38,403 nucleotides of DNA. Source: Oscillospiraceae bacterium. Lineage in GTDB: Bacteria; Bacillota; Clostridia; Oscillospirales; CAG-272. The position numbers were made by a program, and so were the translations under genes. The stretch covers positions 1-38,403 of the forward strand of contig SVSL01000009.1 of assembly GCA_015064315.1 (NCBI GenBank). Direction: 5' to 3'. Within the stretch, counting starts at the first letter, position 1, and each line of letters opens with the position of its first letter. The notes under the pieces are model-generated. The model had not been told where the DNA came from. It ran no database searches and worked only from the letters and a program-made list of their open reading frames with translations. Shown here piece after piece: positions 7,014 through 38,114 of the stretch.

Positions 7014-7042
7014 AGTGGATTTACCTCCTTATAAAATTTTCA

Positions 7043-7321: not shown

Positions 7322-7364
7322 AATAGATGTACCTCCGTTTATTTTTGATTTTTGATTTTACTTT

Positions 7365-7643: not shown

Positions 7644-7663
7644 GATTTAAAATCTCCTTCAAA

Positions 7664-8083: not shown

Positions 8084-8121
8084 AGTGCCTCCGTGAGTGC
8101 TTTGTGTTGAGAGGGATCAGA

Positions 8122-8400: not shown

Positions 8401-8431
8401 TTTCTTTATTTCCTTTCAATTATGAATCAAA

Positions 8432-8746: not shown

Positions 8747-8761
8747 ATCGGTCACCCGTTA

Positions 8762-9964: not shown

Positions 9965-10003
9965 TTTATCTATCCTTTCGTGTATCTGCGAAGTAATCAA
10001 AAT

Positions 10004-10480: not shown

Positions 10481-10495
10481 AGAATCAAGAGGGAA

Positions 10496-11290: not shown

Positions 11291-11334
11291 TGTTTTGTTC
11301 TCCTTGATATGTTAATTATTTTTGATTTTGAATT

Positions 11335-11760: not shown

Positions 11761-12122
11761 CAGGTTTTTGTGATCTTGCATACCGTGAATCCAAGCGTGC
11801 CCTCGGCGTAGTCGGTGACCGCCTTGAGGGAGGCATCAACCTCCGAGTAGGTTCCCGTGAGAATGACGGTTCCGCTGAAGCGATCCACAAAGCCGAGCTG
11901 TGCGCCCGAAGCCTTGATGGCAATGTCTCCTGCGATGATCGCCGTTTCCGCGGGGCTGAGTGTCAGGATGCCGATGGCGGACTTGGAATATTCCACCGCG
12001 GGATCAAGTCCCAGCTTTTTATACAGGATCTCGTCGGGGTTGGCGATAATGTGCGCCAGCGTGATCTGCTTACCCGGAACCAGCTCTTGTATAATGCGTT
12101 GCTTTTCTGCGTAATGTTCCAT
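11760..12122 (-). CDS. pduU: PduU/EutS-type circularly permuted shell protein
   Basis: 120 aa. The opening RIIQELVPGKQITLAHIIANP is diagnostic of the PduU/EutS family, whose permuted BMC fold carries an N-terminal strand forming a small barrel over the hexamer pore. The rest (AIGILTLSPAETAIIAGDIAIKASGAQLGF) is the BMC core. The pairing with the EutP GTPase immediately downstream is seen in eut and pdu operons too, and fits the idea that this shell protein docks the GTPase. Confidence 0.93.
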   Translation of the reverse strand: MEHYAEKQRIIQELVPGKQITLAHIIANPDEILYKKLGLDPAVEYSKSAIGILTLSPAETAIIAGDIAIKASGAQLGFVDRFSGTVILTGTYSEVDASLKAVTDYAEGTLGFTVCKITKT

Positions 12123-12143
12123 ATTGGTTGGCTTTTACCTCCT

Positions 12144-12938: not shown

Positions 12939-12961
12939 TTGCTGCTCACACCTCCATCGAA

Positions 12962-21319: not shown

Positions 21320-23383
21320 ATGGATATTTGTCTTGCGCGTGATCGACTTTTGAAATTGGCCTTGGAAATGGAACAGAATATCGGCGCGTCGGTGATGCAA
21401 AGGGATAGCCTTTTGATTGAGGCGGTGTTGAAAAACGCCGAGATTGACATCCCCGAGGACGCTGTTTTTACGGGAAGCCTTGCCCATTTGGACGTGATGA
21501 AGGAGATCGTTGAAGCGCGTGCCGATGCGCTGGGCGAGGTGCTTCACCAAAGGGATGCGCTGAAGCCTCATTTTGCGGCGCAGGAGATCCGCGCCTATAC
21601 GGGTGCTTATGACTTCGGACACACCTCGCCGGACTGGGAGAACGTCTACCGACTGGGGCTTCCGGGGCTTTTGGAGCGCTTGAAAAAAGCGCAGACGGAT
21701 GCTGCCGAGGCGGAGGAAAAGGAGTATTGCGCCGCCGGTGTACGCGTGTGGAGCGCAGCGTTGGAATCCGTGGAGCGTATGGCGAAAAAAGCACACGTGT
21801 TAGGGAAAATCGATATGGCAAGCGGACTTCTGGCACTTTCCCAAAGACCTCCCGAGAGCCTGTTTGAGGCGATGCAGCTCTGCTTTTTGTACTATGATCT
21901 TCAACAGAACGTGGAAAGAAGCCTTGTGCGTACGCTGGGAAGATTAGACCGCTTACTCTACCCTTATTGGAAGCGTGATCTTGAAAAGGGAACTCTCACA
22001 GAGGCGTCTGCGGATGCCCTGATCGATGCTTTTCTGCGCGCGTGGGATGAAAGAAGGATCACCGCCAACGCTCCTTTTACCGTTGGCGGCTCCTTTGGAG
22101 AGACGGGGGCGTGTGTCAATGCGCTCTCCTACCGTCTTCTTGCGCGCCACGTTGCGCTGGGCTTGCCCAACGTCAAGGTGCATATTCTTTACACCGAGAA
22201 CACGCCGCGGGATTTTTTGAAAATCGCTTTTTGCGGCATCCGTGAGGGGTCTAACAGCATTGTGTTTCTCAATGATCAAAGGGTTATTCGTTCTCTTTCC
22301 GCGCTTGGAATGGCGTACGAGGATGCCTGCCGCTACGACGTGGTGGGATGCTACGAGCCCTCCGCCAAGGGGGAGGTTCCTTGCTCCTGCAATGGGCGTG
22401 TGAATCTCGCGCGGGCTGTGGAGCGGGCAATGGCGGATTGCTTGGAGAAACAGGAAGAAGAACTCTCCTTCGACCTCCTTTTGGAGCGATTCTACCGTCA
22501 CGTGGCGGATTTTTGCTACGGATCTATGGCTTTGGTGGATGCGTGGGAGGAGAAGCTTTCTCTGCTTCATTCGTCGCCTTTCTTTTCTGCCACCTTTGAT
22601 CACTGCATTGAGAAAAGATCCGACGTGTATGCCGGAAACGGTGCGAAATATCACAATTCCTCCATCAATCTGGTGGGGCTTGCCACGGCGGTAGACTCGC
22701 TTTTGGCGATTCGAAAGGCGGTGCTTGAGGATCGAATCTTCACGCTTGCCGAATTTTCTTTGATTCTTCAAAGCAACTGGCAGGGGAATGAAGCTCTGCG
22801 ACAGCGCATTCTGAAGAAATATCCCAAATACGGAGCCGGCGATCCCGATGCCGATCGGATCGCGCAAGAGACCGTAAGGCGTGCCGCTGAATGTGTGAAC
22901 CGAAAGCCCAATCGCAAGGGCGGTATCTATCGCCTTGGCGCGTTCTCCATTGATTGGCGCATTGGCTTTGGCAGACGGATGGGGGCGAGCGCGGACGGAA
23001 GACTTGCCGGAGAGCCGCTTTCCAAAAACCTGTGCGCTTCCACGGGGGCGAGCCGAGACGGTGTAACGGCTGAGATCCTTTCGATTGCTTCTCTTGACGG
23101 CAATGCCATGCCCAATGGCTCGGTGCTGGATCTGGTGCTTCATTCCTCTTCGGTAAAGGGGGAAGTGGGATTGGAGGCACTGGAGGCGACCTTGCGTGCC
23201 TACGTGGGACAGGGAGGCATGGCAATCCAGTACAGTGTATTGAATGCCGAAGAGCTCCGTGAGGCGCAGCTGCGTCCCGAAGCGTACCAAAATTTGCAGG
23301 TTCGCGTGTGTGGCTGGAACGCGCGGTTTGTGTCGCTTTCAAGGGTGGAGCAGGATGAGTTCATTTTGCGCTCCGAGCATTGA
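21320..23383 (+). CDS. Stand-alone glycyl radical enzyme, unknown substrate
   Basis: 687 aa, clearly shorter than pyruvate formate-lyase or diol dehydratases (about 750-850). The thiyl residue is Cys344 in DVVGCYEPS and the radical glycine is Gly665 in VRVCGWNARF, both in the expected positions. The GCYEP and RVCGWN motifs differ from the microcompartment enzyme (GCVEP, RVAGYS), so this is another subfamily. AAGGAGG ribosome site, own strong promoter and own terminator; single-gene unit. No activase gene is adjacent, so it must borrow one, perhaps the protein at 12144-12938 or one elsewhere. I do not recognise the substrate. Confidence 0.88.
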   Translation: MDICLARDRLLKLALEMEQNIGASVMQRDSLLIEAVLKNAEIDIPEDAVFTGSLAHLDVMKEIVEARADALGEVLHQRDALKPHFAAQEIRAYTGAYDFGHTSPDWENVYRLGLPGLLERLKKAQTDAAEAEEKEYCAAGVRVWSAALESVERMAKKAHVLGKIDMASGLLALSQRPPESLFEAMQLCFLYYDLQQNVERSLVRTLGRLDRLLYPYWKRDLEKGTLTEASADALIDAFLRAWDERRITANAPFTVGGSFGETGACVNALSYRLLARHVALGLPNVKVHILYTENTPRDFLKIAFCGIREGSNSIVFLNDQRVIRSLSALGMAYEDACRYDVVGCYEPSAKGEVPCSCNGRVNLARAVERAMADCLEKQEEELSFDLLLERFYRHVADFCYGSMALVDAWEEKLSLLHSSPFFSATFDHCIEKRSDVYAGNGAKYHNSSINLVGLATAVDSLLAIRKAVLEDRIFTLAEFSLILQSNWQGNEALRQRILKKYPKYGAGDPDADRIAQETVRRAAECVNRKPNRKGGIYRLGAFSIDWRIGFGRRMGASADGRLAGEPLSKNLCASTGASRDGVTAEILSIASLDGNAMPNGSVLDLVLHSSSVKGEVGLEALEATLRAYVGQGGMAIQYSVLNAEELREAQLRPEAYQNLQVRVCGWNARFVSLSRVEQDEFILRSEH

Positions 23384-23832: not shown

Positions 23833-23861
23833 TTGACAAATCCGCGGTTTTGTGGTATGAT
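23833..23861 (+). promoter_or_regulatory. Promoter of the transporter/DUF5696 operon
   Basis: -35 TTGACA (23833-23838), 17-bp spacer, -10 TATGAT (23856-23861) preceded by TGG (extended -10). Predicts a long leader of about 240 nt before ATG 24110. Confidence 0.85.
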
Positions 23862-23913
23862 ATATTGTATCTAAATGGGGTAATTCTGCCCAAATGCGCT
23901 TGCAGGAGGGAAA

Positions 23914-23949
23914 ATGACCCGATTTTTCGACCTTTCAAACGCTTTTTGA
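23914..23949 (+). CDS. Possible leader peptide MTRFFDLSNAF
   Basis: An 11-residue ORF starting 4 nt after a perfect AGGAGG (23904-23909), inside the long leader of the operon. The ten bases TTGCAGGAGG before it are repeated exactly before the first structural gene (24092-24101). Three of its 11 residues are Phe. A hairpin follows directly (CGCA-AGGCC/GGCTT-TGCG, about 23954-23976). Translation-coupled attenuation is conceivable; no expression evidence exists. Confidence 0.4.
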   Translation: MTRFFDLSNAF

Positions 23950-24047
23950 CCGCGCAAAGGCCTTGTGGCTTCTGCGGGGAAGAGGAGTGCGCGAGGGTTG
24001 AGCTTGTACGAAACGTAACAGAACTTCTTTCGGGAGAGGGGACGTTG

Positions 24048-24111
24048 CCTGAGTACCCACTAAATCGGACTCGGCTCAGGTCCGAAATGATTTGCAGGAG
24101 GAAACGCAAAT
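24048..24111 (+). promoter_or_regulatory. Competing hairpins and Shine-Dalgarno hairpin in the operon leader
   Basis: CCTGAG (24048-24053) can pair with CTCAGG (24075-24080). Alternatively TCGGAC (24065-24070) pairs with GTCCGA (24080-24085). The two share bases and exclude each other. Next, ATTTGC (24090-24095) pairs with GCAAAT (24106-24111), placing AGGAGG in a 10-nt loop with the start codon at the stem base. This is a plausible translation-control element; it matches no riboswitch class I recognise. Confidence 0.5.
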
Positions 24112-27100
24112 GAGAAACACAAAATTCACAAGAACCCTTTGCCTGATCTTGGCGATGATGACTCTTGTGAGCGGCTTTGTCGTATCTGCCGGCGCAAGCG
24201 GCAATCGAAAGTACGAGAATGCCACCGACAAGTCGATCAGCGACTATGCTGATAAGCTGAACACCATCTCCTACGAGGAGTATATGGCGGTCCCCGAGCA
24301 TCAAAAGCTTTTCTCGGGTGACAAGAAGCCGGTGTCCATTATCATCGATTTTGATGCGTGCTCAAATTGGAGCTTCCGTAACGGAAGCGGAGACGTGATC
24401 ACCTACATCGACGGTAATTGGCTGCTGACTCGTAAGAGCGATGGCAAGATCTTTACCTTTGAGGAAGCTCTGAAAGAGGGCTACCAGAAAAAGGATCTGG
24501 TCTACGTTGATGAAAACGTCGACGGCGTCAAGGCACTCTATACGCCCAGTCTTGGTACCACCACCTGGACCATTGACCTGGCTTCGTACGGTGTTACCGA
24601 ATCGGCTCTGTTCAACATTGGATTGGAGTATTACCCCGTAGAAGGCAAGTCTGTTGCCATTGAGCGTGAGTTTTACATCAATTCCGAGGCTCCCTTTGCT
24701 GAGGCGCGCGCACTGACGCTCGCAAAGATCTGGGGACTTCGTGCAACCGACGGTGTGTCCGAGCTGATTTGCAAGTATGAGCTCACCAAGGATGACAATC
24801 TGGATTCCATCCTTGAGGAGGCTGCGGAAGCCGGCGTTGAGGTTGTTGAGGTTGCAGAGGATGGCAAGAGCGTTTCTCTGAAGCAACCCAAAATTATCAA
24901 CGCTAAGGTGAATGCTTTCGTTGACAAGTACGAGCTTCGCTTCTTTACCGTTGATAAGAACAAAAACGAGATGCGTCCTTCCATGGTACAGGATCCCTGC
25001 TGGACCTACTACACCATGCACGACAGTAACGGATATTTTAGTGAAGATTTTGGTTTCGTGCTGACTCCCGATGCAAACGGCGACGTTCGCCTGATGCTGG
25101 AGGGTATCAACGAGCCTATGGCGATTTCCCGAATCGTTCTCACGCCCTATGCCGAGATGATCTCCTACGAGGAGTACATTGCTTCTATTAAGAATAAGGT
25201 AGGCGACGATGAAGGCGATGACGTGGTGAAGATCGAAACCGAGTATCCCACCAATACCTCCACCAACACCGTGTATCCCATTGAGGATAGAACCTCTCCT
25301 CTGACTTCTCCCGTGGATCCCGCAAGAACCATTCTCAATACCATTGGTTCCGAGAAGTGGGCAACCGCAGGACAGTGGGTTGAGTATCAGTTCACCGTAA
25401 ACGATTCCGGCTTGTACGATATTTACGCACGCTTCCAGCAGAGCTACCTGGACGGTATGTACGTAAACCGTGTAATGAAGCTGTATACGAATTATGCGGA
25501 CATTGCCGCTTATAAGGCTGCCATCGGCAACGATGCCGGCTACTACAACGGCGTACCCTTCGCAGAGGCTGCTCGCCTGAGATACAACTATTCCTCCGGC
25601 TGGCAGGTAACCGGACTGAACTCCGGCGAAGGCGAGGATTACAAGATCTACCTTGAAAAGGATGTTGTATACACCATTCGCTTCGAGGTTACCCTTGGTA
25701 GCATGAGCGAGCTGGTTCGTGAGATCGAGGATATTCTGAACACTTTGAATAATGACTACCTCAGCATTCTGAAGTTGACCGGTACCTCTCCCGACAAAAA
25801 CCGTGACTACGCCTTTAACCGCTTGTTGCCCGACACCATGATGAGCATGATGGATCAGGCTGTCAGATTGGAAAAGGTTTCCGCGGAATTGAAAAATACC
25901 TCCGGTGATGCTTCCACCTACACCGGTATTTGTGATAAGCTGGTTGCTCTGCTCAGACGTATGGCAACCGACGAGGATCAGGTTGCAAAGAATCTGACCA
26001 ACTTCAAGAACTACGTTGGTTCTCTCGGTACCTTCTTGACCGACGCAAAGACCCAGCCTCTTGAAATGGACTACTTTGTGATCCAGTCCTCCGAAAAGGA
26101 ACAGCCCAAGGGCGCTGCAGGCTTCTTCAGATCTCTGTGGCACGAAATCCTTTGCTTCATCCAGTCCTTCTTCCGTGACTACAACCACATGGGTGCTATG
26201 GAAGATTCCGATACCGACAAGACCATCAGCGTTTGGGTTCCTTACGGACGTGACCAGGCAAACGTTATTCGTAACCTGTCCACCAACCAGTTCACCGCAG
26301 ATACCAAGATCGCGGTTGACTTGAAGCTGGTTACCGGCGGTACCTTGCTTCCTTCGATTCTTGCAGGCATGGGTCCTGACGTTTACATGGGTCTGGCGCA
26401 GGCGAGCGTAATCAACTACGCAATCCGCGGCGCGCTGATCAACGTGGAAGAGATGGATGGCTTTGGCGAGGTTGTTAAGAACTTTAACGACGCGGCAATG
26501 GTGGTTCTTGGAACGCAGGATGCGGATGGCGTGACCCACTACTACGGTCTGCCCGAGAACCAGGAATTTGCAATGATGTTCGTTCGTATAGACATTCTTG
26601 CAAGCCCTGCCGTTGACATTGAGATCCCCACCACTTGGGAGGAGCTTTACGTGGCTCAGTCCAAGCTGGAGACCAACAACATGGAAATTGGTGTTACCAC
26701 CAGCTATAAGATGCACCTCTACCAGATGGGCGGTGAGCTCTTTGCGGATGACGGTATGAGAATCAACCTCGACTCCGTGGTTGGTCTGAAGTCCTTTGAG
26801 ACCATGTGTAACATGTTTACGCAGTTCTCCTTCCCCTACAAGTATGATCCTGCAAACCGTTTCAGAACCGGTGAAATGCCCATCATTATTTCCAACTATA
26901 CGTCTCTTTATAATAAATTGAAGGTTTTTGCAACCGAAATCGAGGGTAGCTGGACCATGGTTCCCGTTCCCGGTTACGAGTATCAGGACGAAAACGGTGA
27001 GTATTACCTCAACAACCAGTCGGTTGCAAACGTGGACGCAACGGTTATGATCGCCGGTGTTGACGACGAGAGCGCCGCTTGGGAGTACATCAAGTGGTAC

Positions 27101-27856
27101 ACCGGCGCTGCTTGCCAGGTTGACTACGCAAACGAAATGGTTGCAATCATCGGTGACTCCGCAAAGCATCCTACCGCAAACCGCGCAGCTCTTGAAAGTA
27201 TGCCTTGGACTCCCGACGAGTACGTTGAGATTCAAAAGCAGTTTGAGAATCTTGCATCGGTTCCCAACTATCCCGGTTACTACATCATCGACCGTTATAC
27301 CGACTTCGCATTCCTGTCGGCTTACAACGATGATGCGGATCCCAGTGATGAGATCTTGAGCTACATCAACACCATTAACAAGGAAATCACCCGTAAGCGT
27401 GAAGAGTTCAAGCTGGAGACCCTGGAGATCGGTCAGACCAAGGCCGAGAAGAGAAGAGGTCAGGTGCTGAAGGCTATGACCGCTTTGGATTCGATCAACG
27501 GATCCAAGTACGAAGCCGCAATTGAGGCTGCCAAATACGCCATTGCAAACGATGATATCGTACAGCTTTCGGCGATTGCAGAGACTTTCTCCGCATTCCT
27601 TTCCTACGATTACCTTGCTGACAAGCGTGTCATTGAAAACGAAGACCTTAGTGCCGCTGCAAAGTCTGCTAAGATTGAGCAGTTCAACAAGGAATTGAGA
27701 AACAAATACGAGAACGAATTCTTCGTTTTCGTTACCAAGCAGACTGCTGAACCCAAGAATGGCGGTTACAAGATCGAAGATCTGAACGAGAAGCAGCTGG
27801 TATTCTTTATTTCGGTATGCTTGGATGACATCGCGAAAGCACTCGCTTCTTACTGA
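24110..27856 (+). CDS. Large secreted protein with C-terminal-half solute-binding domain
   Basis: 1248 aa from ATG 24110 (MRNTKFTRTLCLILAMM). Residues 1-30 are a signal peptide without a lipobox. About 90-400 is beta-rich and unrecognised. About 405-540 looks like a CBM6/35-type sandwich (WATAGQWVEYQFTVNDSGLYDIYARF). About 675-695 is a hydrophobic/amphipathic stretch (FFRSLWHEILCFIQSFFRD). About 703-1045 is a family 1 extracellular solute-binding domain (ISVWVPYGRDQANVIRNLS, GMGPDVYMGLAQ, TWEELYVAQSKLE, AAWEYIKWYTG). About 1105-1248 is helical. Typical binding proteins are 400-550 aa lipoproteins, so the size and lack of a lipid anchor are unusual. It leads the permease operon and presumably delivers a glycan; the ligand is unknown. 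Confidence 0.85.
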   Translation: MRNTKFTRTLCLILAMMTLVSGFVVSAGASGNRKYENATDKSISDYADKLNTISYEEYMAVPEHQKLFSGDKKPVSIIIDFDACSNWSFRNGSGDVITYIDGNWLLTRKSDGKIFTFEEALKEGYQKKDLVYVDENVDGVKALYTPSLGTTTWTIDLASYGVTESALFNIGLEYYPVEGKSVAIEREFYINSEAPFAEARALTLAKIWGLRATDGVSELICKYELTKDDNLDSILEEAAEAGVEVVEVAEDGKSVSLKQPKIINAKVNAFVDKYELRFFTVDKNKNEMRPSMVQDPCWTYYTMHDSNGYFSEDFGFVLTPDANGDVRLMLEGINEPMAISRIVLTPYAEMISYEEYIASIKNKVGDDEGDDVVKIETEYPTNTSTNTVYPIEDRTSPLTSPVDPARTILNTIGSEKWATAGQWVEYQFTVNDSGLYDIYARFQQSYLDGMYVNRVMKLYTNYADIAAYKAAIGNDAGYYNGVPFAEAARLRYNYSSGWQVTGLNSGEGEDYKIYLEKDVVYTIRFEVTLGSMSELVREIEDILNTLNNDYLSILKLTGTSPDKNRDYAFNRLLPDTMMSMMDQAVRLEKVSAELKNTSGDASTYTGICDKLVALLRRMATDEDQVAKNLTNFKNYVGSLGTFLTDAKTQPLEMDYFVIQSSEKEQPKGAAGFFRSLWHEILCFIQSFFRDYNHMGAMEDSDTDKTISVWVPYGRDQANVIRNLSTNQFTADTKIAVDLKLVTGGTLLPSILAGMGPDVYMGLAQASVINYAIRGALINVEEMDGFGEVVKNFNDAAMVVLGTQDADGVTHYYGLPENQEFAMMFVRIDILASPAVDIEIPTTWEELYVAQSKLETNNMEIGVTTSYKMHLYQMGGELFADDGMRINLDSVVGLKSFETMCNMFTQFSFPYKYDPANRFRTGEMPIIISNYTSLYNKLKVFATEIEGSWTMVPVPGYEYQDENGEYYLNNQSVANVDATVMIAGVDDESAAWEYIKWYTGAACQVDYANEMVAIIGDSAKHPTANRAALESMPWTPDEYVEIQKQFENLASVPNYPGYYIIDRYTDFAFLSAYNDDADPSDEILSYINTINKEITRKREEFKLETLEIGQTKAEKRRGQVLKAMTALDSINGSKYEAAIEAAKYAIANDDIVQLSAIAETFSAFLSYDYLADKRVIENEDLSAAAKSAKIEQFNKELRNKYENEFFVFVTKQTAEPKNGGYKIEDLNEKQLVFFISVCLDDIAKALASY

Positions 27857-27893
27857 TTCAACACTCTATATTAATAATTAAGGAGAAAGAGCA

Positions 27894-28841
27894 ATGGCAA
27901 AACAATCGGCTGCATATAAAGCTGTTGCCAGAAAAGACCTGACGTACCGTCAATGGATCTGGAAAGAGATGAAGCGCAACTGGGTTGCATACGTTATGAT
28001 CGCACCCTACATGCTTGTGTTCTCTCTGTTCACCATTGTACCGGTTGTCCTGTCCGTGGTTATCAGCTTTACAGACTTTAACATGCTTCAGATCCCGAAT
28101 ATCGTTTGGTTCGAGAACTACATCAACCTGTTCTTCGCGGATGATATCTTCCTGATCGCATGTAAGAACACGCTTATTTTCGCCGCAATCGTAGGACCTG
28201 CTTCCTACTTGATGGCATTCCTCATCGCATGGTTCATCAACGAGCTTAGCCCCCGTATCCGTGCGGTTATTACCTTGGTATTCTATGCACCCTCTATTTC
28301 GGGTCAGGTTTACTTGATTTGGGCTACGCTGTTTGATGCCGACTCCTACGGTTGGGTAAACGCAACGCTGATGGAGCTTGGCTTGATCGATAAGCCGCAG
28401 GAGTGGTTTAAGGACGCGGACTACGTTATGCCTCTGTGTATCATGGTTGCGCTTTGGACTTCTCTTGGTACTACCTTCCTTGCCTTTATTGCAGGTTTGC
28501 AGGGTATTGACCGCGCACAGTACGAGGCAGGCGCGGTGGACGGTGTTAAAAACCGTTGGCAGGAGCTTTGGTACATTACGTTGCCCAACATGAAGCCTCA
28601 GCTGATGTTCGGTGCAGTGCTTGCAATTACCAACGCGTTCGGATTTGGCGGTGTCGTTACCGCTTTGGCAGGCTTCCCCTCGGTTGACTATGCGGCGCAT
28701 ACCATTATGCACCACTTGGATGACTACGGCGGACAGCGTTATGAGATCGGTTATTCCTCTGCGATTGCGGTGGTGCTCTTCATCATCATGGTCGGATCGA
28801 ATATGCTGGTACGTAAAATGCTCTCAAAGGTAGGTACGTAA
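27894..28841 (+). CDS. ABC sugar transporter permease, MalF-like (pair 1)
   Basis: 315 aa with about six membrane segments starting at MIAPYMLVFSLFTIVPVVLSVV. The cytoplasmic EAA loop is present (YEAGAVDGVKNRWQELWYITLP, around residue 209, cited here as EAGAVDGVKNRW), which docks the ATPase. AAGGAG ribosome site. It ends one base before the next permease. The ATPase is not encoded here and is presumably a shared MsmK-type protein. Confidence 0.93.
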   Translation: MAKQSAAYKAVARKDLTYRQWIWKEMKRNWVAYVMIAPYMLVFSLFTIVPVVLSVVISFTDFNMLQIPNIVWFENYINLFFADDIFLIACKNTLIFAAIVGPASYLMAFLIAWFINELSPRIRAVITLVFYAPSISGQVYLIWATLFDADSYGWVNATLMELGLIDKPQEWFKDADYVMPLCIMVALWTSLGTTFLAFIAGLQGIDRAQYEAGAVDGVKNRWQELWYITLPNMKPQLMFGAVLAITNAFGFGGVVTALAGFPSVDYAAHTIMHHLDDYGGQRYEIGYSSAIAVVLFIIMVGSNMLVRKMLSKVGT

Positions 28842-28842
28842 C

Positions 28843-29715
28843 ATGGCAAAATTAAGAACAAGAAAACATAAGGTCGTCCTCTCCCGCTCTGCGGGAGGTG
28901 ACGCCGGCATCGTAGTATTGCTTGTTATACTCGGAGCATTTATGTTCCTCCCCATGCTGTACGTGGTGATGCAGTCCCTGAAGCCCCTGGATGAGTTGTG
29001 GAACTATCCTCCTCGCTTCTACGTAGTAAACCCCAGCTTTAAGAACTTCCGCGACCTGTTCATTCTGATGAATGACTCTTGGGTTCCGTTCTCCCGTTAC
29101 ATCTTTAATACCATCTTCACCTCTGTTGGCGGTACCTTCGGACACCTGTTCATTGCATCTATGTGTGCATATTCGCTGGCAAAGATCAAGTTCCCCGGCG
29201 CAAAGGGAACCTTTAAGCTGATCCGTACCTCGCTGATGTTCCACGCAACCGTTACCGCAGTTGCAAGCTTCATTCTGATGAGTGCGTTCCATATGATCGA
29301 CTCCTACTGGGCAATTATCATTCCCGCATGGGGCGATACCTTGGGTCTGTACCTGATGAAGCAGTTTATGGACTCCGCTGTTCCGGATACCGTATTGGAA
29401 AGCTCCCGTTTGGACGGCGCGAGCGAGCTGAAGACCTACTGGGTTATCGCAATGCCCATGGTTAAGCCCGCATGGCTGACGCTGATCGTAGAGTGCTTCC
29501 GTAAGCTTTGGAACGCAGGTTCTTCCATTTATATTTATTCCGAGCAGTTGAAATCCTTCAACTACGCAATCGGTCAGATCACTGCCGGTGGTATCAAGCG
29601 TGCGGGTGCATCCGCGGCAGCTACCGTGCTGATGATGATCGTTCCTATTATGGTATTCGTCGTTTCTCAGTCCAACATTATTGAGACGATGGGATCCAGT
29701 GGTATGAAAGACTAA
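28843..29715 (+). CDS. ABC sugar transporter permease, MalG-like (pair 1)
   Basis: 290 aa, MalG-type. First membrane helix IVVLLVILGAFMFLPMLYVV; EAA loop ESSRLDGASELKTYW with MPMVKPA near residue 185-205. Ribosome site AAAGGTAGG inside the end of the previous gene, so the two are translated together. Normal length, without the insertions seen in pair 2. Confidence 0.92.
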   Translation: MAKLRTRKHKVVLSRSAGGDAGIVVLLVILGAFMFLPMLYVVMQSLKPLDELWNYPPRFYVVNPSFKNFRDLFILMNDSWVPFSRYIFNTIFTSVGGTFGHLFIASMCAYSLAKIKFPGAKGTFKLIRTSLMFHATVTAVASFILMSAFHMIDSYWAIIIPAWGDTLGLYLMKQFMDSAVPDTVLESSRLDGASELKTYWVIAMPMVKPAWLTLIVECFRKLWNAGSSIYIYSEQLKSFNYAIGQITAGGIKRAGASAAATVLMMIVPIMVFVVSQSNIIETMGSSGMKD

Positions 29716-29725
29716 GGAGGGCAAT

Positions 29726-31867
29726 ATGAAAAGAATTACATCTGTTTTGCTGATTATATTGTCCCTTGTGATGGTGGCATCGGCATTCACCATTGGTGCT
29801 GGCGCATCCTCTGCGTACCAGACCTACACCTACTCCATCAACGGAGACGCGCTCTATTCTCCTGACGCGTATTCCGCAACCGGAACCTACGATTATTTGG
29901 CAATGGGTCTGGATCTGAACCTTGATAACCCCGGTGACATGATTACCGACGAAAGAGGAAAGGTTTACATTGCAGACACCAACAACAACCGAATCATCAT
30001 TTTGGACCCCTACTACAAATTGGAGTTCATTATCACCACCTTTATCAATGCGCAGGGTAATAACGACGCATTGGCAAAGCCTCAGGGCGTGTTTGTAACC
30101 GAGGATTCGATCTGGGTATGCGATACCGATAAGAACCGCTTGGTTGAGTTTGACCTTGAGGGTAACTTCAAGCGTATTCTGGACGCCCCCGAAAGCCAGC
30201 TGTTTGACGATGACGCCGTTTACAAGCCTGTTGCAATGGCAATCGACCAGTACGGCAGAATTTACGTTGTTTCCTCGACCACCTATCAGGGTATCATCGT
30301 AATGGATAACAACGGTGGATTCGTTGGATTCATCGGTGCGCAGGCGGTAACCGCAAGCGCATGGGACATCATTTGGAAGAGATTCCAGACCGATGAACAG
30401 AAGAAGCAGTCTACGGCTGCCGTTTCCACTGAGTTTAACAACATCGCAATCACCGAGGACGGCTTCGTTTACGTAACCACCTCCTCCATCGAGGAGAAAT
30501 CGGTAAGAAGCGCGATCACCGGTAAGCAGACCAGCGGTAAGTATATGCCCGTTAAGCTGCTGAATCCCGCAGGCGACGAGATCATGAGACGTAACGGCTT
30601 CTGGCCGCCCGCAGGTGAGATCCAGTTTACCACCGATACTACGCAGGAATATTCCGGCGTTTCCACCGTTACCGACGTAGCGGTTGGTCCCGAGAAGACC
30701 TGGTCGATCATCGACTCCAAGAGAAACAAGATCTACACCTACGACTACAACGGTAACCTGCTGTTCGCTTTTGGTGACAAGGGCGCAATGCTGGGTAGTA
30801 TTTCCAACATCGAGGCTGTTTGCTATCAGGATACCACCATGTTGGTTCTGGATAAGGGTAACAACAGTATCGTTGTTTACGAGCGTACCGAGTACGGTGA
30901 TCTTTTGATCAAGGCAATTGCAGCAGAGAACTCCCTGGACTACGATTACGCAATCGAGTGTTGGGAAGCAGTTCTGCAGAGAAACTCCAACTTTGACGCC
31001 GCTTACGTTGGTATCGGTAACGCACACTTCCGTAACGGTGAATACGAAAAGGCGCTGGGCTACTTCGAGGACGCATACGATACCGAGGGCTGGTCCAACT
31101 CTTACAAGGAAGTTCGTAAGAACGCCATGTCCGACTGGTTCCTGCTCATCGTTGGCGCAATCATCGTATTGGTGATTCTGGTGGCTAAGGCATTTGCTTG
31201 GGCTGCTAAGGTAAACAAGCGCGTTGCTACCGACGGTAAGGCAAGAAAGACCTTTGGACAGGAATTGCTCTACGGTTTGTACGTTATCTTCCATCCCTTC
31301 GATGGCTTCTACGACCTCAAGCATGAGCATCGTGGCTCCGTAAGAGCTTCCATCGTATTTGTGGTTTTGACCATTCTCTCCTTCTTCTATCAGGGCATGG
31401 GTCAAGGCTACGTAATGAATCCCACAGGAAGGACCACCACCATTATGGCACAGGCGATCTCGGTACTGGTACCGCTGTTCCTGTTCATCTTGGCAAACTG
31501 GTGTCTGACCACCTTGTTTGAGGGTGAAGGTAGCTTTAAGGATATCTTTATCGCGTCCTCTTACTCTCTCGTTCCCCTGATTCTTTTGACAGTCCCCGCG
31601 ACCATCGGCTCCAACTGGGTAACCAATACCGAAAAGGGTCTGATCACCATGGTCAGCACCATCGCCTTTATCTGGACGTTTGCGTTGCTCTATTTTGGCA
31701 CCATGGTAACACACGATTACTCCATGTTCAAGAATCTGATCACCATTGCGGGAACGTTGGTGGCAATGATTTGTATCATCTTTATCGTGCTGTTGTTCAG
31801 TATGCTTCTTACAAAACTGGTAAGTCTGGTAAGCAACATAGTTACTGAAATTCAGTACCGAATGTAA
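29726..31867 (+). CDS. NHL-repeat, TPR and Yip1-domain membrane protein
   Basis: 713 aa. Signal peptide 1-27; NHL-type beta-propeller about 55-390 (DERGKVYIADTNNNRIIIL is a textbook unit, cited as KVYIADTNNNRIIIL); tetratricopeptide unit about 410-450 (AAYVGIGNAHFRNGEYEKALGY, cited as GNAHFRNGEYEKALGY); first membrane helix about 470-490 (LLIVGAIIVLVILVAKAF). A Yip1-like multi-span domain (about 500-713, four to five helices) follows. The propeller and TPR would face outside and the Yip1 part sits in the membrane. AAGGAGG ribosome site. Perhaps a glycan-sensing or scaffold component for the adjacent permeases; no enzymatic motif seen. Confidence 0.85.
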   Translation: MKRITSVLLIILSLVMVASAFTIGAGASSAYQTYTYSINGDALYSPDAYSATGTYDYLAMGLDLNLDNPGDMITDERGKVYIADTNNNRIIILDPYYKLEFIITTFINAQGNNDALAKPQGVFVTEDSIWVCDTDKNRLVEFDLEGNFKRILDAPESQLFDDDAVYKPVAMAIDQYGRIYVVSSTTYQGIIVMDNNGGFVGFIGAQAVTASAWDIIWKRFQTDEQKKQSTAAVSTEFNNIAITEDGFVYVTTSSIEEKSVRSAITGKQTSGKYMPVKLLNPAGDEIMRRNGFWPPAGEIQFTTDTTQEYSGVSTVTDVAVGPEKTWSIIDSKRNKIYTYDYNGNLLFAFGDKGAMLGSISNIEAVCYQDTTMLVLDKGNNSIVVYERTEYGDLLIKAIAAENSLDYDYAIECWEAVLQRNSNFDAAYVGIGNAHFRNGEYEKALGYFEDAYDTEGWSNSYKEVRKNAMSDWFLLIVGAIIVLVILVAKAFAWAAKVNKRVATDGKARKTFGQELLYGLYVIFHPFDGFYDLKHEHRGSVRASIVFVVLTILSFFYQGMGQGYVMNPTGRTTTIMAQAISVLVPLFLFILANWCLTTLFEGEGSFKDIFIASSYSLVPLILLTVPATIGSNWVTNTEKGLITMVSTIAFIWTFALLYFGTMVTHDYSMFKNLITIAGTLVAMICIIFIVLLFSMLLTKLVSLVSNIVTEIQYRM

Positions 31868-31888
31868 GGACAGATAGGAGGTTATAAT

Positions 31889-34800
31889 ATGAATTTTCAA
31901 AAAAGAATATTTACGACACTCTTAGCTGTTATCATGCTTCTCGGTGCTTTTTCCGGGCTTGGTATTAACGTAGGAGCGGCTGAAGAGGAAGTTTCCATGG
32001 AGGACAAGATCAAGAACACCTACCTGGGACAGTCCTACAACACCCCCGAAGAAAAGCTGGCATCCATGACCATGATGCTGGAGCGTGACGGCTATCAGCT
32101 CTGGGTTGATCCCCTGAGCGGTGAGGTCGCTACCAAGGAGCTCGCAACCGGTAACATTGCGTTCTCTAACCCTTGGGACGTTACCGGATCTGATATGGAC
32201 ATTCAGAACGAGACCAAAAAGACCGGTTCTCAGTCCACACAGATGCAGGTGCTCTCTCAGCTGGTTGTTCAGTACGTGGACAACGGTACCACCAAGTATC
32301 TTTACAGCTTTGAGGAAGCAGCGCTGCGCGAGCAGATCTCTATCGTAAACATCAAAAACGGTGTGCGTATTGAGTACACCATTGGACGTGAAGAGTCCAG
32401 AAAGCTGGTTCCCAGATGGATCTCCGAGGAGAACTTCATTAAGTTCATTCAGACTCCTTTGGCAAACGCCGTTACCAACGGCGAGCTCAGCGACTTCTTG
32501 TATAGAAAGGTTGTAGAAAGCTTCTATTTCGAGAAGAGCTTGGAGAATGAAAAGACGCAGAGAGCGAAGGATCAGCTGCTTCAGAACTATCCGATCTGCG
32601 CAGAAATGGATATTTATGAGTTTGCACCCGACGCTACCTCCACTGAGGTAAACCTGGTTGAAACTTATATCAAGACCTACTGCGAGGATTATAGCTTTGA
32701 ACAGATGGACGCCGACCACGAGGAAACCGGTTACGAAGCAACCGATGAAAAGTATCCCGTGTTCAAGATGGCTCTGGAATACTCCTTCGACAACGGCGGT
32801 TTGATCGTTCGTCTGCCTTGTAACGGTCTGCGCTACGATATGACCACCTACACGCTGGAAAATCTGTCGATCCTGCCTTACTTTGGTGCAGGTAACAGCA
32901 AGAATCCCGGCTACAACTTCTATCCCGACGGCTCCGGTTCGCTGTTTGATTTCGAGCAGCTGAATACCAAGGCTACTACTACCATTAAGGGTAAGGTTTA
33001 CGGCTCCGACTATGCTTACCATACGCTGACCGGTACTTACCAAAAGGCAATTCGTTATCCCGTTTACGGTACAGTTGCCACCGAGACCATTTACTCCTTT
33101 ACCTGCGTTGACGCAGACGGAAAGCCTCACAGCATTTCGGTTTCCAATACCGTTATGGATCTGGATGAGATCAAGGAATGGCTGGATTGGGAAGCTACCT
33201 GGTCTTACGTAAATGCAAACGGTGAGACTGTTACCGAAAAGAAGACCAAAATGATGCTGACCTCCGAAATTACGGAGGAGACCTACAAGCGCGGTTACGT
33301 AGCGGTAATCGAGTCGGGTGATTCTCTTGCGGAAATCGCAACCTATCACGCAGGCTCTCTTAGCCCCTACAACACCATTATGAACTACTTCAACCCCAAG
33401 CCCAAGGACAGTTATGACCTTGCGGATGCACTTTCGGTAACCAACAACTCGATTATGACGGTTGTTTCCGACCGTAAGTACACGGGTAACATCAGAATCC
33501 GCTACCAGATGCTCAGCGACGTTGCAAGAGGTCAGGAGGCAAGAAAGTCTAATCCCGATTATAAGTTCTATGAGGCTTCTTGGTTGGGTATGGCTGAGGC
33601 TTACCGTGATTATCTCGTTGACAAGGGCATTTTGACCAAGCTGGAAGAGGATGACGTTCAGCCCGACATTCCTCTTTACATGGAGAGCTTTGGTGCGCTG
33701 GAGGTTCAAAAGGTTATTGCGACCATTCCTATGGACGTTATGACTCCTCTTACTACCTTTGAGAACGTTTCCTCTATGTATGAGGAGCTTTCCAATGAGG
33801 GTGTTAAGAACATCAATTTCAAGCTGACCGGCTTTGCCAACGGCGGTATGTATTATACCGTTCCTTCCGCTCTTGAGTGGGAAGACGCAGTTGGCGGCGA
33901 GGATGGCTTCCAGGAGCTGATCGAGAAATCTAAGGAGATCAATAGCCGTGGCGACGGTTCTCATTTGGGATTGTTCCCGGATTTCGACTTCGCTTATATC
34001 CAAGCCAATACCTCGTTTGACGATACCAACCTCAGAGATGATGCGGTTAAGACCATTGATAACCGTTATACCTCTTTGAGACAGTACAGTGCAACTCTTC
34101 AGACTTACGTCAGCTTCTATCAGCTGGCCGTATCTCCTTCCCGTTACAGCAAGTTCTATAAGCAGCTTCTGAAATCCTATCAGGAATACGGACTTGACAC
34201 CATGTCGGTTGGTTCCTTGGGTTCTGCTTTGAACTCTGACTTTGATGAGGATGATCCTTACAACCGTGAGGACAACAAGGAGTATACCGAGCAGGCGTTC
34301 TCTTACCTCAAGAATGCGGGCTATAGCCTCATGACCGATAAGGGTAACGCTTACACTTGGGGCTACGTAGACCACATCATCAACGTGGATCTCGACTCCA
34401 GCCGTTACGTAAAGTCCAGCGCATCCGTTCCTTTCATTGGCGCTGTGCTTCACGGCTACATTGAATTTGCCGGCACGCCCTTCAACAAGGAGGGTGACAC
34501 CGACTACGCTATGCTTCGTGCAATCGAAAACGGCTCCGGTCTCTATTTCGTTCTGTCTTACCAGAACACCGCAGAGCTGAAGAAAGACGTTTTCCTCAGC
34601 CAGCACTATTCGGTTCAGTACGACATTTGGCGTGAAGACGTAATTGCTTATTACAACGAGCTGAACAGCCTGCTCAAGGACGTTCAGACCAAGGAGATCA
34701 TTGCCCATCAGTTCCTGGAGGGTGAGCGTGTTCTGGATCGCGACGAGCTTCTCAACGAGATCGAGTCGAGCCTGAAGGAAGCCATCAAGGAAGAGCTGAA

Positions 34801-35800
34801 GAAGCAAGAGGATCTTGAAAACTCTCAGATCGTTGCAGTTGGTGACGCTTGGCAGTCTGCCTTGAACGCAACCTCCGATATCGAAGCTTTGATCGCCCAG
34901 ATGAACGCAAAGAATGACGAAATGCTCGCTACCTACAACCGTGTTGAAAGCTTGGTTACGCCCATGACCGGTGGTGCACAGCAGGCATTCAGCAGCTCGC
35001 TGCGTGCAATCTGGAGCGCAATCGACGGTGATGATTCTAACGGATCTATGACGTTGGGTGAGGCTGATATCGAAAAGATGCAGGAAATGTTCCCTGAGGC
35101 ACTGGATGCAATGCAGTCCTATATTAACACTGTTAAGAATCAGGCAGCAGGCGTTTACAAGTGCTATGAGGAGCAGAAGATCCTTTTGAAGAAGATCTAC
35201 GCTGTTATCGAAAACGTTGAAGCGGCTTCCGCTGTAATCGAGAACTCCGACCTGAGCGAAGACGTAAAGAAGAACCTGGTTGGTCACATTGCAGTATGCC
35301 TGGATGAGGCTAAGGCAATGATCCCCGGTGCCGAGGCATTGGTTGACGTTCACGTTGACCTGATGGATAACACCAAGTCTACTTCCGTTATCAACATTGC
35401 GCTGACTGCTCCCGATGCTGTTGCAGCGATTGACAGTAAGGAAACCGAGTGGTCTCCCTTCGTTTCTCACTTGAAGGATATCTACGACGGCTATGAAATC
35501 GATGGCGTCTTCTATGAAGGATGTACCTACTTTACCGCTGAGGATGTTCTTGCAGCCGTAAGACTGGATGAAGAGGACGTTGAGGACGAAGAGGTTGAGG
35601 ATAGCATCTTCGACAGATATCACGTTGATAACAATCAGATCGTTGCCGTTACCTACGGTGACCGTGACTTCAACACCTACGGTGTAAAGACCGCTTACAA
35701 GACCTTTATTCTGAACTACAACACCTTCGCGGTATTCGTGGAGTACGATAACGTAAAATACACGATTCCCAGCGGCGGATACGTTGTGATCAATCACTGA
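31889..35800 (+). CDS. DUF5696-like large secreted protein, possible glycoside hydrolase fold
   Basis: 1303 aa. Signal peptide 1-31 (cleavage near VGAAEEE). About 40-570 is beta-sandwich-like with GAGNSKNPGYNFYPDGSGS. About 590-930 resembles a TIM barrel (PLYMESFGALEVQKVIATIP, GLFPDFDFAYI, YGLDTMSVGSLGSALNSDF, FVLSYQNTAELK). About 955-1235 is mainly helical. The last ~60 residues return to strands (NNQIVAVTYGDRDFNTYG ... YTIPSGGYVVINH). Order and motifs fit the DUF5696 family as I recall it. A hydrolase role with acids in PDFDF or ESFG is inference. AGGAGG ribosome site. No membrane anchor. Confidence 0.75.
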   Translation: MNFQKRIFTTLLAVIMLLGAFSGLGINVGAAEEEVSMEDKIKNTYLGQSYNTPEEKLASMTMMLERDGYQLWVDPLSGEVATKELATGNIAFSNPWDVTGSDMDIQNETKKTGSQSTQMQVLSQLVVQYVDNGTTKYLYSFEEAALREQISIVNIKNGVRIEYTIGREESRKLVPRWISEENFIKFIQTPLANAVTNGELSDFLYRKVVESFYFEKSLENEKTQRAKDQLLQNYPICAEMDIYEFAPDATSTEVNLVETYIKTYCEDYSFEQMDADHEETGYEATDEKYPVFKMALEYSFDNGGLIVRLPCNGLRYDMTTYTLENLSILPYFGAGNSKNPGYNFYPDGSGSLFDFEQLNTKATTTIKGKVYGSDYAYHTLTGTYQKAIRYPVYGTVATETIYSFTCVDADGKPHSISVSNTVMDLDEIKEWLDWEATWSYVNANGETVTEKKTKMMLTSEITEETYKRGYVAVIESGDSLAEIATYHAGSLSPYNTIMNYFNPKPKDSYDLADALSVTNNSIMTVVSDRKYTGNIRIRYQMLSDVARGQEARKSNPDYKFYEASWLGMAEAYRDYLVDKGILTKLEEDDVQPDIPLYMESFGALEVQKVIATIPMDVMTPLTTFENVSSMYEELSNEGVKNINFKLTGFANGGMYYTVPSALEWEDAVGGEDGFQELIEKSKEINSRGDGSHLGLFPDFDFAYIQANTSFDDTNLRDDAVKTIDNRYTSLRQYSATLQTYVSFYQLAVSPSRYSKFYKQLLKSYQEYGLDTMSVGSLGSALNSDFDEDDPYNREDNKEYTEQAFSYLKNAGYSLMTDKGNAYTWGYVDHIINVDLDSSRYVKSSASVPFIGAVLHGYIEFAGTPFNKEGDTDYAMLRAIENGSGLYFVLSYQNTAELKKDVFLSQHYSVQYDIWREDVIAYYNELNSLLKDVQTKEIIAHQFLEGERVLDRDELLNEIESSLKEAIKEELKKQEDLENSQIVAVGDAWQSALNATSDIEALIAQMNAKNDEMLATYNRVESLVTPMTGGAQQAFSSSLRAIWSAIDGDDSNGSMTLGEADIEKMQEMFPEALDAMQSYINTVKNQAAGVYKCYEEQKILLKKIYAVIENVEAASAVIENSDLSEDVKKNLVGHIAVCLDEAKAMIPGAEALVDVHVDLMDNTKSTSVINIALTAPDAVAAIDSKETEWSPFVSHLKDIYDGYEIDGVFYEGCTYFTAEDVLAAVRLDEEDVEDEEVEDSIFDRYHVDNNQIVAVTYGDRDFNTYGVKTAYKTFILNYNTFAVFVEYDNVKYTIPSGGYVVINH

Positions 35801-35821
35801 GAAAGGGAGGAGCTTTAAGTT

Positions 35822-36832
35822 ATGACAAAAGATATCAAGCTGGCAAAGCCTGCAGCTATGCCCAAGAAAAAGAAAATCGCCTCCCTTGATCGCAGAAAGG
35901 CTCGTTCCGGTTGGATTTTCGTTCTCCCCTTTATTCTGGGATTTTTGATCATCTATCTTCCCATGGTTTGGGAATCCATTACCATCAGCTTTACGCAGGT
36001 TACAACCCTGACAGCTCAGGGCGAGACCGGATATGCTACCGAGTTTGTTGGATTTACCAACTACAAGACCGCCCTGTTTAGCTACAAGGGCGGTCAGGGA
36101 AATCAAACCTTTATCCAGATTCTGGTAACGGGTCTTGGACAAATGGCGTTTGACGTTCCCGCAATTCTGATCTTCTCCCTCTTCATGGCAGTTATGCTGA
36201 ACCAGAAGATGGCGGGAAGAGCCGCATTCCGTGCAATCTTCTTCCTCCCCGTTATTCTTTCCACCGGTATCATGCAGGGCATCGCCGCTGCCGATATTAC
36301 CAGTGAGGAGATGGAGGGCGGAATTGATGACGGTTCCGGAAGACCCGAAGGCGAAGGCGAGGAAGACCAGTTGGTTTCTTCCATGGACCTTCAGATGCTG
36401 TTTGCCAACATGAAGGTTGGTGCGGGAATGGTGGAATACATTGCTGAGATTTTGAACAACATCTATGATATCGTAAACCGTTCCGGTGTACAGATGTTGA
36501 TCTTCTTGGCAGCGTTGCAGTCCATTTCTCCCGCGATTTACGAGGCGTGCCGTATCGACGGTGCAACCTCTTGGGAGACTTTCTGGAAGATCACCTTCCC
36601 AATGATCAGCCCGATGATCTTGGTAAACGGTGTTTATACCATCGTAGACTCCTTCACGACCGAAAGCAACCAAATCATGTCTTACATTTCTGATGCTTAT
36701 TCGGCAGCCCAAGGCGGTAGTGAAGTGAGTACGGCAATGTCTTGGATCTACTTCATCATTGTTATCCTGATCGTTGCAGTGATTGCAGGTATCCTTTCGG
36801 CATCCGTATTCTACAGCCGTAAGAATGACTAA
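35822..36832 (+). CDS. ABC sugar transporter permease, MalF-like with acidic loop insertion (pair 2)
   Basis: 336 aa. First helix IFVLPFILGFLIIYLPMVW; EAA loop YEACRIDGATSWETFW with FPMISP near residue 240. Between helices, residues ~158-215 hold an unusual acidic, Gly-rich insertion (EEMEGGIDDGSGRPEGEGEE) and a following helix, absent from the pair-1 MalF protein. GGGAGGAG ribosome site. Confidence 0.9.
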   Translation: MTKDIKLAKPAAMPKKKKIASLDRRKARSGWIFVLPFILGFLIIYLPMVWESITISFTQVTTLTAQGETGYATEFVGFTNYKTALFSYKGGQGNQTFIQILVTGLGQMAFDVPAILIFSLFMAVMLNQKMAGRAAFRAIFFLPVILSTGIMQGIAAADITSEEMEGGIDDGSGRPEGEGEEDQLVSSMDLQMLFANMKVGAGMVEYIAEILNNIYDIVNRSGVQMLIFLAALQSISPAIYEACRIDGATSWETFWKITFPMISPMILVNGVYTIVDSFTTESNQIMSYISDAYSAAQGGSEVSTAMSWIYFIIVILIVAVIAGILSASVFYSRKND

Positions 36833-36849
36833 GGGAGGAGGAAAAGAAC

Positions 36850-38058
36850 ATGAACGCACAAAAGATGAATGAAAAACCCGTTGTAAAGCGGGAGACCAAA
36901 AACAAAATTCGTGTGAGCTTTGACCGTACTCCTTTGAAGGAGCGCCTGAAGGCGAAGTTCCTGTCCTCCTACTTCCTCACCAAGGTTGTATTTGTAATCT
37001 TCAGACTGGTTTTGATGGTTGGTGTTTCGTACATTGTATTGTACCCCTTCTTGACCAAGTTCATGGGATCCATCATGGCTCCCGAGGATTTTGTAGACGT
37101 TACCGTAATGCTGCTCCCCAAGAACGTGACGCTGGATATTTACCGTGCCATTATCCTGGAGCTTGATTACTGGGGCGCGTTTGCAAACACCTTTACGCTT
37201 TCTTTCTCGACTGCACTGATTCAGACCTTTATCTGTTGTTTGATCGGTTACGGTTTTGCAAAGTTTAAGTTTAAGGGTAGAAACCTCCTCTTTATGCTGG
37301 TAATGCTCACCATGATCATTCCTCACCAAACCCTGTATTACTCCATGTTCCTGAAGTTCCGCTATTTCGATGTGTTTGGCATTGTAAAGTTTCTCAAGGG
37401 CGGCGGAATTGAGCTGTTTGGACACAATATTATGGAGCTTGGTGAAAAGATCGGCGGCGAGTTTGGCGCAAAGTTCATTGAATTCTTTGAGAATTTGGAC
37501 GTATTGCCCGACTCCATCAAGTGGGGTGAATTCACCACTGCAAAGAACATTACCAAGTATAAGGTCAACATGGAAATTACTTCCGCGGGTATCAATCTGC
37601 ACAACACCTATCTTCCCATGATCCTGCTCTCCTTGGGCGGCTTGGCATTCAAGAACGGTTTGTACATTTTCTTGCTCCGTCAGTTCTTCCGTGGAGTACC
37701 TGATGAATTGGAAGAATCGGCATACATGGACGGTTCGGGCACGCTCCGCACCTTCATTCAGATCATTCTTCCTCTGTCCATCCCCATGATGATCACCGTA
37801 TTCCTGTTTGCATTCTGCTGGCAGTGGACTGACGAATTCTACGTCAATATGTTCTTCTCCAGCTCGGATATTAACATGTTGCCTAAGTTTGTTGGCATTC
37901 CTCCTTCCCTCAACACCGAGTTTGCGGGCGCGGAGCTTTACAACACGGCAATTCGAAACACTTGCGGTTTGATGATCATTGCACCGCTGGTTATCCTGTA
38001 CGTATTCTGCCAGAACTTCCTGGTACAGGGTATCGAGCACTCGGGTATTGCAAACTGA
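36850..38058 (+). CDS. ABC sugar transporter permease, MalG-like with loop insertion (pair 2)
   Basis: 402 aa, over 100 aa longer than the pair-1 MalG protein. It has a charged cytoplasmic N-terminal extension of ~50 residues, then the first helix (FVIFRLVLMVGVSYIVLYPF). An insertion spans about 177-252 (FLKGGGIELFGHNIMELGEK ... ITSAGINLHNTYLP). EAA loop EESAYMDGSGTLRTF with LPLSIP near 285-305. GGGAGGAGG ribosome site. Last gene of the operon; a hairpin follows at 38076. Confidence 0.9.
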   Translation: MNAQKMNEKPVVKRETKNKIRVSFDRTPLKERLKAKFLSSYFLTKVVFVIFRLVLMVGVSYIVLYPFLTKFMGSIMAPEDFVDVTVMLLPKNVTLDIYRAIILELDYWGAFANTFTLSFSTALIQTFICCLIGYGFAKFKFKGRNLLFMLVMLTMIIPHQTLYYSMFLKFRYFDVFGIVKFLKGGGIELFGHNIMELGEKIGGEFGAKFIEFFENLDVLPDSIKWGEFTTAKNITKYKVNMEITSAGINLHNTYLPMILLSLGGLAFKNGLYIFLLRQFFRGVPDELEESAYMDGSGTLRTFIQIILPLSIPMMITVFLFAFCWQWTDEFYVNMFFSSSDINMLPKFVGIPPSLNTEFAGAELYNTAIRNTCGLMIIAPLVILYVFCQNFLVQGIEHSGIAN

Positions 38059-38075: not shown

Positions 38076-38114
38076 ATCAAAGGGAGTCGGCTCCAAGAGC
38101 CGACTTCTTTTGAT
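38076..38114 (+). terminator. Terminator of the transporter/DUF5696 operon
   Basis: 18-bp stem with two G-U pairs (38076-38093 with 38097-38114; core AGTCGGCTC/GAGCCGACT, 3-nt loop). The T-rich part lies in the stem and no U tail follows, so it may also protect the mRNA end. Confidence 0.7.

Follow-up and report, generated by a model that had tools for sequence, protein, structure and literature searches.

The stretch of DNA analyzed here, hereafter the window, is the 38,403 nt of contig SVSL01000009.1 of an Oscillospiraceae bacterium (assembly GCA_015064315.1), and it contains a forward-strand operon of seven genes encoding a giant solute-binding protein (SBP), two permease pairs, a membrane protein with NHL, TPR and Yip1 domains and a DUF5696 protein. 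The operon begins with a promoter (TTGACA-N17-TATGAT with a TG ahead of the -10 hexamer, 23833–23861) that has an 11/12 consensus match. Sites of this quality were found upstream in all 16 of the 22 window-family loci (L050–L071) that had sufficient upstream sequence, whereas a single mononucleotide shuffle of each sequence gave such a site in 2 of the 16. The seven open reading frames (ORFs) are separated by gaps of 37, 1, 10, 21, 21, and 17 nt, and the Shine-Dalgarno match is complete (6/6) for four genes, with two others at 5/6 and the last at 4/6. The operon closes at an intrinsic terminator (38076–38114; an 18-pair hairpin of 39 nt, -27.8 kcal/mol, z -7.6) followed by a tRNA-Gln with its own promoter-like site, with the window ending at position 38403. 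These ORFs, spacings and ribosome sites all lie where a previous annotation made from the sequence (the initial annotation) had placed them, and its description of one unit driven by a single promoter stands, while the "export" part of the export/import label it gave the operon is unsupported.

The four permeases are encoded at 27894–28841 (A1, MalF/UgpA type), 28843–29715 (B1, MalG/UgpE type), 35822–36832 (A2) and 36850–38058 (B2). That these represent two full pairs was confirmed by the detection of BPD_transp_1 (PF00528) in all four proteins, with scores of 35.7, 19.9, 43.9, and 43.2 bits, respectively, that of B1 being under the curated cut-off. A1 matches the UgpA profile (9.6e-16) and B1 that of UgpE (6.5e-18), along with that of GlcU. 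When aligned to its homolog in locus L174, B2 has an inserted loop of several dozen residues. In another locus (L175, 3862–6718) the B1 gene is in two halves with a 442-aa ORF on the opposite strand between them, perhaps a mobile element.

The first gene (24110–27856) encodes the 1248-aa giant protein, which has a signal peptide. Its identification as an SBP is upheld by the profile of its family, which matches sugar-binding protein structures over the last third (best to Lin1841, 5ysb, 1.2e-32), although the window protein scanned alone had no Pfam family at E ≤ 0.01. The middle region of the family profile matches 5x7g (5.3e-8), which we take to be a CBM35-bearing enzyme, and CBM_35 was detected in five of 25 family members. 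The giant protein is thus predicted to have a CBM35-like middle and a solute-binding domain in about its last third, with only approximate borders in the window protein. Lipobox statistics collected with a crude pattern for the giant SBP (10/123) and DUF5696 (9/119) were rejected since mechanical ORF starts spoil the test; the same pattern caught just 13 of 61 classical SBPs.

The protein encoded at 29726–31867 (713 aa) has NHL, TPR and Yip1 domains by Pfam, as the initial annotation had proposed. Hydropathy indicates a signal segment and a further segment separating the TPR part from the Yip1 part, which itself contains several more, and because of this placement the NHL/TPR part is probably outside the cell, making the protein a probable extracellular scaffold. 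In several lineages it is encoded by two genes.

The gene at 31889–35800 encodes an exported 1303-aa protein that is a genuine member of DUF5696 (PF18952, 452 bits), so that its earlier description as "DUF5696-like" had the family right but was too weak. A profile of 25 DUF5696 proteins matched two GH129-type enzymes, the GH129-like DagB (5opq, 2.2e-8) and NagBb (5wzn, 8.6e-7), and a profile of 38 more diverse members raised these matches to 1.5e-13 and 2.2e-9, respectively. The DagB match is colinear with the known domain layout of that enzyme (PMC5698469), covering the N-terminal sandwich, the first half of the TIM barrel and, weakly, the C-terminal domain. The protein differs from DagB and NagBb, as these are described in the available parts of the reports on them (PMC5698469, PMC8106489), in that its second barrel half, the catalytic half, remained unaligned. 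The Pfam GH129 model (PF11308) had no match in the window genome (G000), in a search that matched nothing anywhere, controls included. We consider DUF5696 to be a divergent GH129-related protein by its profile matches, and do not call it a member of GH129; the statement that the operon has no known glycosidase needs to be qualified in this respect.

In DagB, mutation of Asp202, Asp486, Glu517, or Glu531 abolishes activity, and NagBb Asp435 is equivalent to DagB Asp486 (PMC5698469, as excerpted). The stretch holding these two equivalent residues did not align with DUF5696. Two positions, Asp784 (codon 34238–34240; Asp in 100 of 112 DUF5696 sequences) and Asp828 (Asp in 87 of 112), are candidate catalytic residues, assigned by spacing only. 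Several other features of this family were observed. A segment at about residues 169–275 (window 32393–32713) recurs in BspA-type leucine-rich-repeat proteins of the same genome (L190, 6678–8111; L191, 7803–8960) with 51 and 35% identity, and is therefore a module common to the importer and the leucine-rich-repeat proteins. DUF6259 proteins of the window genome (L192, 2824–4812; L193, 3333–5318) weakly match DUF5696 over the barrel, which suggests a wider, unassigned group of related barrels. Long extensions were found in DUF5696 ORFs of 1863–2036 aa (L095, L107, L112, L115, L116, L121, and L150), and in the one extension examined by Pfam (L112) no family was recognized.

The initial annotation had stressed that the operon has no ATPase. 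While true of the operon, this is not a special feature, as the genome encodes a UgpC/MsmX-type ATPase elsewhere (contig C76, 480 bits against a cut-off of 432), on a contig without a PF00528 match, and in Paenibacillus cellulosilyticus a ugpC gene is located 37 nt upstream of the set. The genome has all the components of a CUT1-type (MalFG) importer: permease pairs, an extracellular family 1 SBP and a MalK/UgpC/MsmX-type ATPase. We infer that the C76 ATPase energizes the permeases of the operon. Such an arrangement, in which importers have no ATPase of their own and one orphan ATPase serves them, is shared with the MsmX/MsmK-dependent CUT1 importers (PMC7658222, PMC8579813); in the present operon, a GH129-related protein and an NHL-TPR-Yip1 protein join two permease pairs in one conserved set. 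Oligosaccharide import is the likely role of the operon, and we are reasonably confident that a conserved oligosaccharide ABC (ATP-binding cassette) import system of the Bacillota is the best explanation for it.

Conservation of the gene order is extensive. Among relatives, 40 loci retrieved on the basis of a DUF5696 match were compared. These span many families of the taxonomic order, and 35 of them have the complete gene order of the window; the remainder comprise one permuted locus (L042), two cut by contig ends (L037 and L068) and two with weak DUF5696 matches and no operon that were retained in the count (L072 and L073). DUF5696 was matched in 26 of 34 same-genus relatives, and one genome (G046) has six copies. 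In named-species genomes, an alignment scan with the giant SBP identified at least 592 stretches, 580 of them encoding an SBP relative. Among the best 80 of these stretches, most of which have record titles indicating herbivore-gut Clostridia or Oscillospiraceae, 51 match the window order from end to end and the remaining 29 match a leading part of it. An apparent lack of the second permease pair in seven named loci was discounted because their DUF5696 ORFs (1863–2036 aa) reach or come near the end of the fetched flank; these seven, the ones checked singly among the 29 partial loci, are flank-limited. The complete operon is also carried by a locus whose record is titled Methanocorpusculum sp., an archaeon (L133), for which a binning error seems more likely than transfer.

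Across the phylum, DUF5696 was above cut-off in 39 of 398 sampled genomes, and 54 loci, representing all strong matches beyond those fetched before, were compared using component profiles that were built partly from the loci to which they were applied. An NHL/Yip1 gene adjoins DUF5696 in 53 of the 54 (the exception, L209, is at a contig end) and a permease pair follows it in 51 (the exceptions, L172, L233, and L230, are likewise at contig ends). The giant SBP was found in 35, where it precedes the core 29 times and follows it six times; the other 19, some of which are limited by their contigs, lack both it and the first permease pair in the stretch read. Based on these counts, the invariant unit consists of the NHL-TPR-Yip1 protein, DUF5696 and the second permease pair, A2/B2, with the giant module as a frequent partner. 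The initial annotation had named operons whose genes are not kept together as the observation that would count against it; the comparison was made and the core held together, although the giant SBP and first pair do not share this constancy. The pairing of an NHL-TPR-Yip1 protein, a GH129-related protein and a sugar permease therefore spans many Bacillota families.

The stretch read also contains a classical SBP of 373–659 aa in 47 of these 54 loci, and in 39 the distance to the set is no more than 600 nt; this second binding protein near the set is new here. Its presence bears on the proposal, made in the initial annotation, that the two channels share one binding protein, with the NHL/Yip1 and DUF5696 proteins forming a surface capture machine around the giant SBP. 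This arrangement would be consistent with there being just one binding protein in the window operon, with the occurrence of the giant module and core together in 35 of 54 phylum loci, and with four same-genus genomes in which the operon occurs but no orphan SBP passes E ≤ 1e-15. We nevertheless consider it unlikely: in the 19 loci mentioned above, the stretch read contains the core but not the giant protein (with the same contig limits), a separate classical SBP accompanies the set in 47, and 18 relatives are found elsewhere in the window genome. The absence of the giant protein and the presence of the classical SBP in these loci indicate that the core is independent of the giant protein, so that the sharing of one SBP by two channels is not supported. 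A surface capture machine composed of the propeller/Yip1 protein and DUF5696 is in itself plausible but unproven.

Instead, we propose that the operon would comprise two modules, the first consisting of permease pair A1/B1 and the giant, CBM-bearing SBP and the second being A2/B2, constantly coupled to the NHL-TPR-Yip1 scaffold and the exported GH129-related DUF5696 protein. In the second, DUF5696 may trim or hold side-chain-bearing oligosaccharides at the permease, and both permease pairs would be energized by the solo MsmX/UgpC-type ATPase. Weighing against a trimming role is the fact that the second, catalytic barrel half of DUF5696 did not align to known enzymes; its catalysis is a prediction and unproven.

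Several types of enzyme are encoded beside homologous operons, including GH26 with CBM27/35, GH43, GH3 with a GDSL esterase, GH31, GH35 with PF10091, and GH106; in same-genus loci of G032 and G002, GH31 enzymes are downstream of the operon. On a plasmid of Butyrivibrio fibrisolvens, pNP243, a two-component system and a GH43 gene are found with the whole set and two SBPs, while in G334 a set of the window type is followed by two SBPs and then by GH43-GH43-CBM6, GH10, GH39, GH10, an esterase, GH39, and GH10. The system has the look of a chassis that serves a number of decorated hemicelluloses rather than xylan alone. In Paenibacillus cellulosilyticus (L195, 18874–29521), several LLM flavin-dependent oxidoreductases are interleaved with SBPs after the set, which is unusual for a sugar importer.

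The closest published counterpart is the xylan degradation locus of Caldicellulosiruptor bescii, which contains the operon xloEFG-X-GH129-axoFGE-xynF-xynE-xynD-xyn10A-xynX-xynB (PMC8579813). As given in the available excerpts of that report, expression of this operon increases on xylan relative to cellobiose, by approximately 10- to 100-fold for the proximal genes and 4- to 9-fold for the distal genes, it is assigned to XynR and AraR, its ATPase is the shared MsmK, and the X and GH129 proteins have no assigned function (PMC8579813). Its likeness to the window operon is in the order SBP-permease-permease-X-GH129-permease-permease and in having no ATPase in the operon, and is one of layout rather than of directly compared sequences; on the same basis X is probably the NHL-TPR-Yip1 protein. 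The C. bescii operon differs in keeping a second SBP (axoE) and xylan-degrading enzymes (PMC8579813), whereas that of the window reaches its terminator and tRNA with neither. G334 reproduces the C. bescii layout, including the xyn-type genes, and from this layout we infer that it is Caldicellulosiruptor-like.

These neighbors also bear on the possibility that the imported material is something other than plant or host glycans, for instance the cell's own envelope polymers. No CAZyme (carbohydrate-active enzyme) is present beside the operon in the window, with none among the ten upstream genes scanned, and the occurrence of DUF5696 in 26 of 34 same-genus relatives would fit a housekeeping function. 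However, hemicellulases adjoin homologous operons and the C. bescii operon is induced by xylan in the account available (PMC8579813), and we regard import of such material as highly improbable. The operon type is conserved and partly published, and the suggestion of a candidate undescribed glycan system stands only in part: the operon is one for oligosaccharide import in which the propeller/Yip1 and DUF5696 proteins are constantly coupled to permeases, but the same layout is already in print for C. bescii. Among the papers that a literature search by domain and product names listed, no title or abstract opening describes the gene set, and none of the papers searched in full text names DUF5696 or PF18952. 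What is new is the invariant core module and a proposed hub role for it, described below.

In the window genome (81.5% complete), PF00528 gave 13 permease matches, of which this operon accounts for four. A search at E ≤ 1e-15 gave 18 SBPs belonging to a single family; 17 are on contigs without a permease match and the other is on contig C20. In 18 loci inspected in this and four related genomes, 36 SBPs of this family were found, and the C20 locus had the sole permease seen. These orphan SBPs are lipoproteins by their signal sequence, whose lipoprotein cysteine is present in all 33 that were aligned. Their profile has weak matches to maltose- and arabino-oligosaccharide-binding structures (best 7.3e-5). 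Orphan numbers vary from 0 to at least 53 in 29 family genomes with 6–16 PF00528 matches each (counts that do not include G003, G005, G007, G009, G015, G024, G026, and G032), the highest being in G020 (at least 53, the search having scored no more than 53 candidates in any genome), G017 (34), G034 (33), and G027 (27).

The orphans are tied to the binding proteins of the operon by both profile and tree controls. The 61 operon-neighbor SBPs were found by a profile built from background SBPs alone, to avoid selection for the answer, and 53 of them scored above 30 bits with the orphan profile, vs. none of 48 background SBPs from four phylum genomes (28 with both strands allowed plus 20 longer, weaker-scoring ones as a harder control) and neither of the two SBPs that are permease-linked in the window genome. 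A tree was built from 62 of 150 rows (random draws plus the two permease-linked SBPs, with three giant-SBP domains left out). In it, one branch with 99/99 support separates all 14 sampled orphans, along with 21 of the 24 operon SBPs, from all 24 background SBPs and the other three operon SBPs. The orphans form a single group at 100/100 in this tree, which has some long branches and is rooted by midpoint only.

Taken from these relationships, our proposal is that A2/B2, together with the scaffold and the GH129-related protein, would be a hub accepting dozens of dispersed orphan lipoprotein SBPs, all from the clade of the operon-neighbor SBPs; A1/B1 may be fed by them too. We propose this role because in the family of the window, one of uncultured gut Clostridia, the classical SBP appears to have left the operon and its clade to have multiplied as scattered lipoproteins. 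The hub is less certain than oligosaccharide import, and we hold it as a tentative proposal with somewhat less than an even chance of being correct. A known system of related design, the cello-oligosaccharide importer Athe_0595-0598, has one permease pair, more than one SBP and a remote ATPase, MsmK; in the portion of the report available it has two SBPs (PMC12838199), vs. 18 scattered in the window genome, where docking is proposed.

Alternatively, the orphans could be sensors, adhesins or scavengers that do not dock here, with each importer keeping its own partner. SBPs with regulatory, non-transport roles are known, such as CuaD (in the available text of PMC12838199), and of the observations that weigh against the hub, the orphans of G029, the varying orphan number and the neighbors of the orphans also favor this explanation. 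In G029, an 81% complete genome, 24 orphan SBPs were counted but the operon was not found; no orphan SBP reached E ≤ 1e-15 in four genomes that carry the operon (G004, G010, G021, and G031). Presence of the operon is no predictor of orphan number, which ranges from 0 to at least 53 in the 22 genomes with it and from 0 to 24 in the seven without a complete one. The neighbors of the orphans look mostly housekeeping in the 25 of 96 families displayed, of which the sole glycosidase is GH2 (two of 75 proteins, these being the scanned portion of 121 listed). Also against the hub, eight of the 61 operon-neighbor SBPs score like background, including both of those of Paenibacillus cellulosilyticus and one of the two of Butyrivibrio, and the permeases of the orphans may be beyond contig ends or too divergent for PF00528. 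Non-docking roles are harder to reconcile with the finding that the nearest relatives of the orphans are operon-neighbor SBPs, not background SBPs, and with the few other permeases in the window genome, where PF00528 matches total 13. We consider such roles a real possibility that we would put at roughly one chance in three.

If the hub proposal is correct, the importer would have a hub-and-spoke design and gain new specificities solely through duplication of its binding proteins, which would explain how genomes of herbivore-gut Clostridia with 6–16 PF00528 permease matches could use up to 50 or more SBPs. The binding repertoire of such a genome would then be a readable list of its diet.

The remainder of the window has genes of other types. 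On the reverse strand (256–15487) are genes for a phosphate propanoyltransferase, an aldehyde dehydrogenase, an acetate kinase, an RnfC-like protein and a full-length 841-aa glycyl radical enzyme, which could be a glycyl-radical enzyme microcompartment locus. Directly upstream of the operon promoter, on the forward strand (21320–23380), is a gene for a 687-aa glycyl radical enzyme-like protein, which scores far under all of the full-length NCBIfam cut-offs and has PFL-like and Gly_radical domains.

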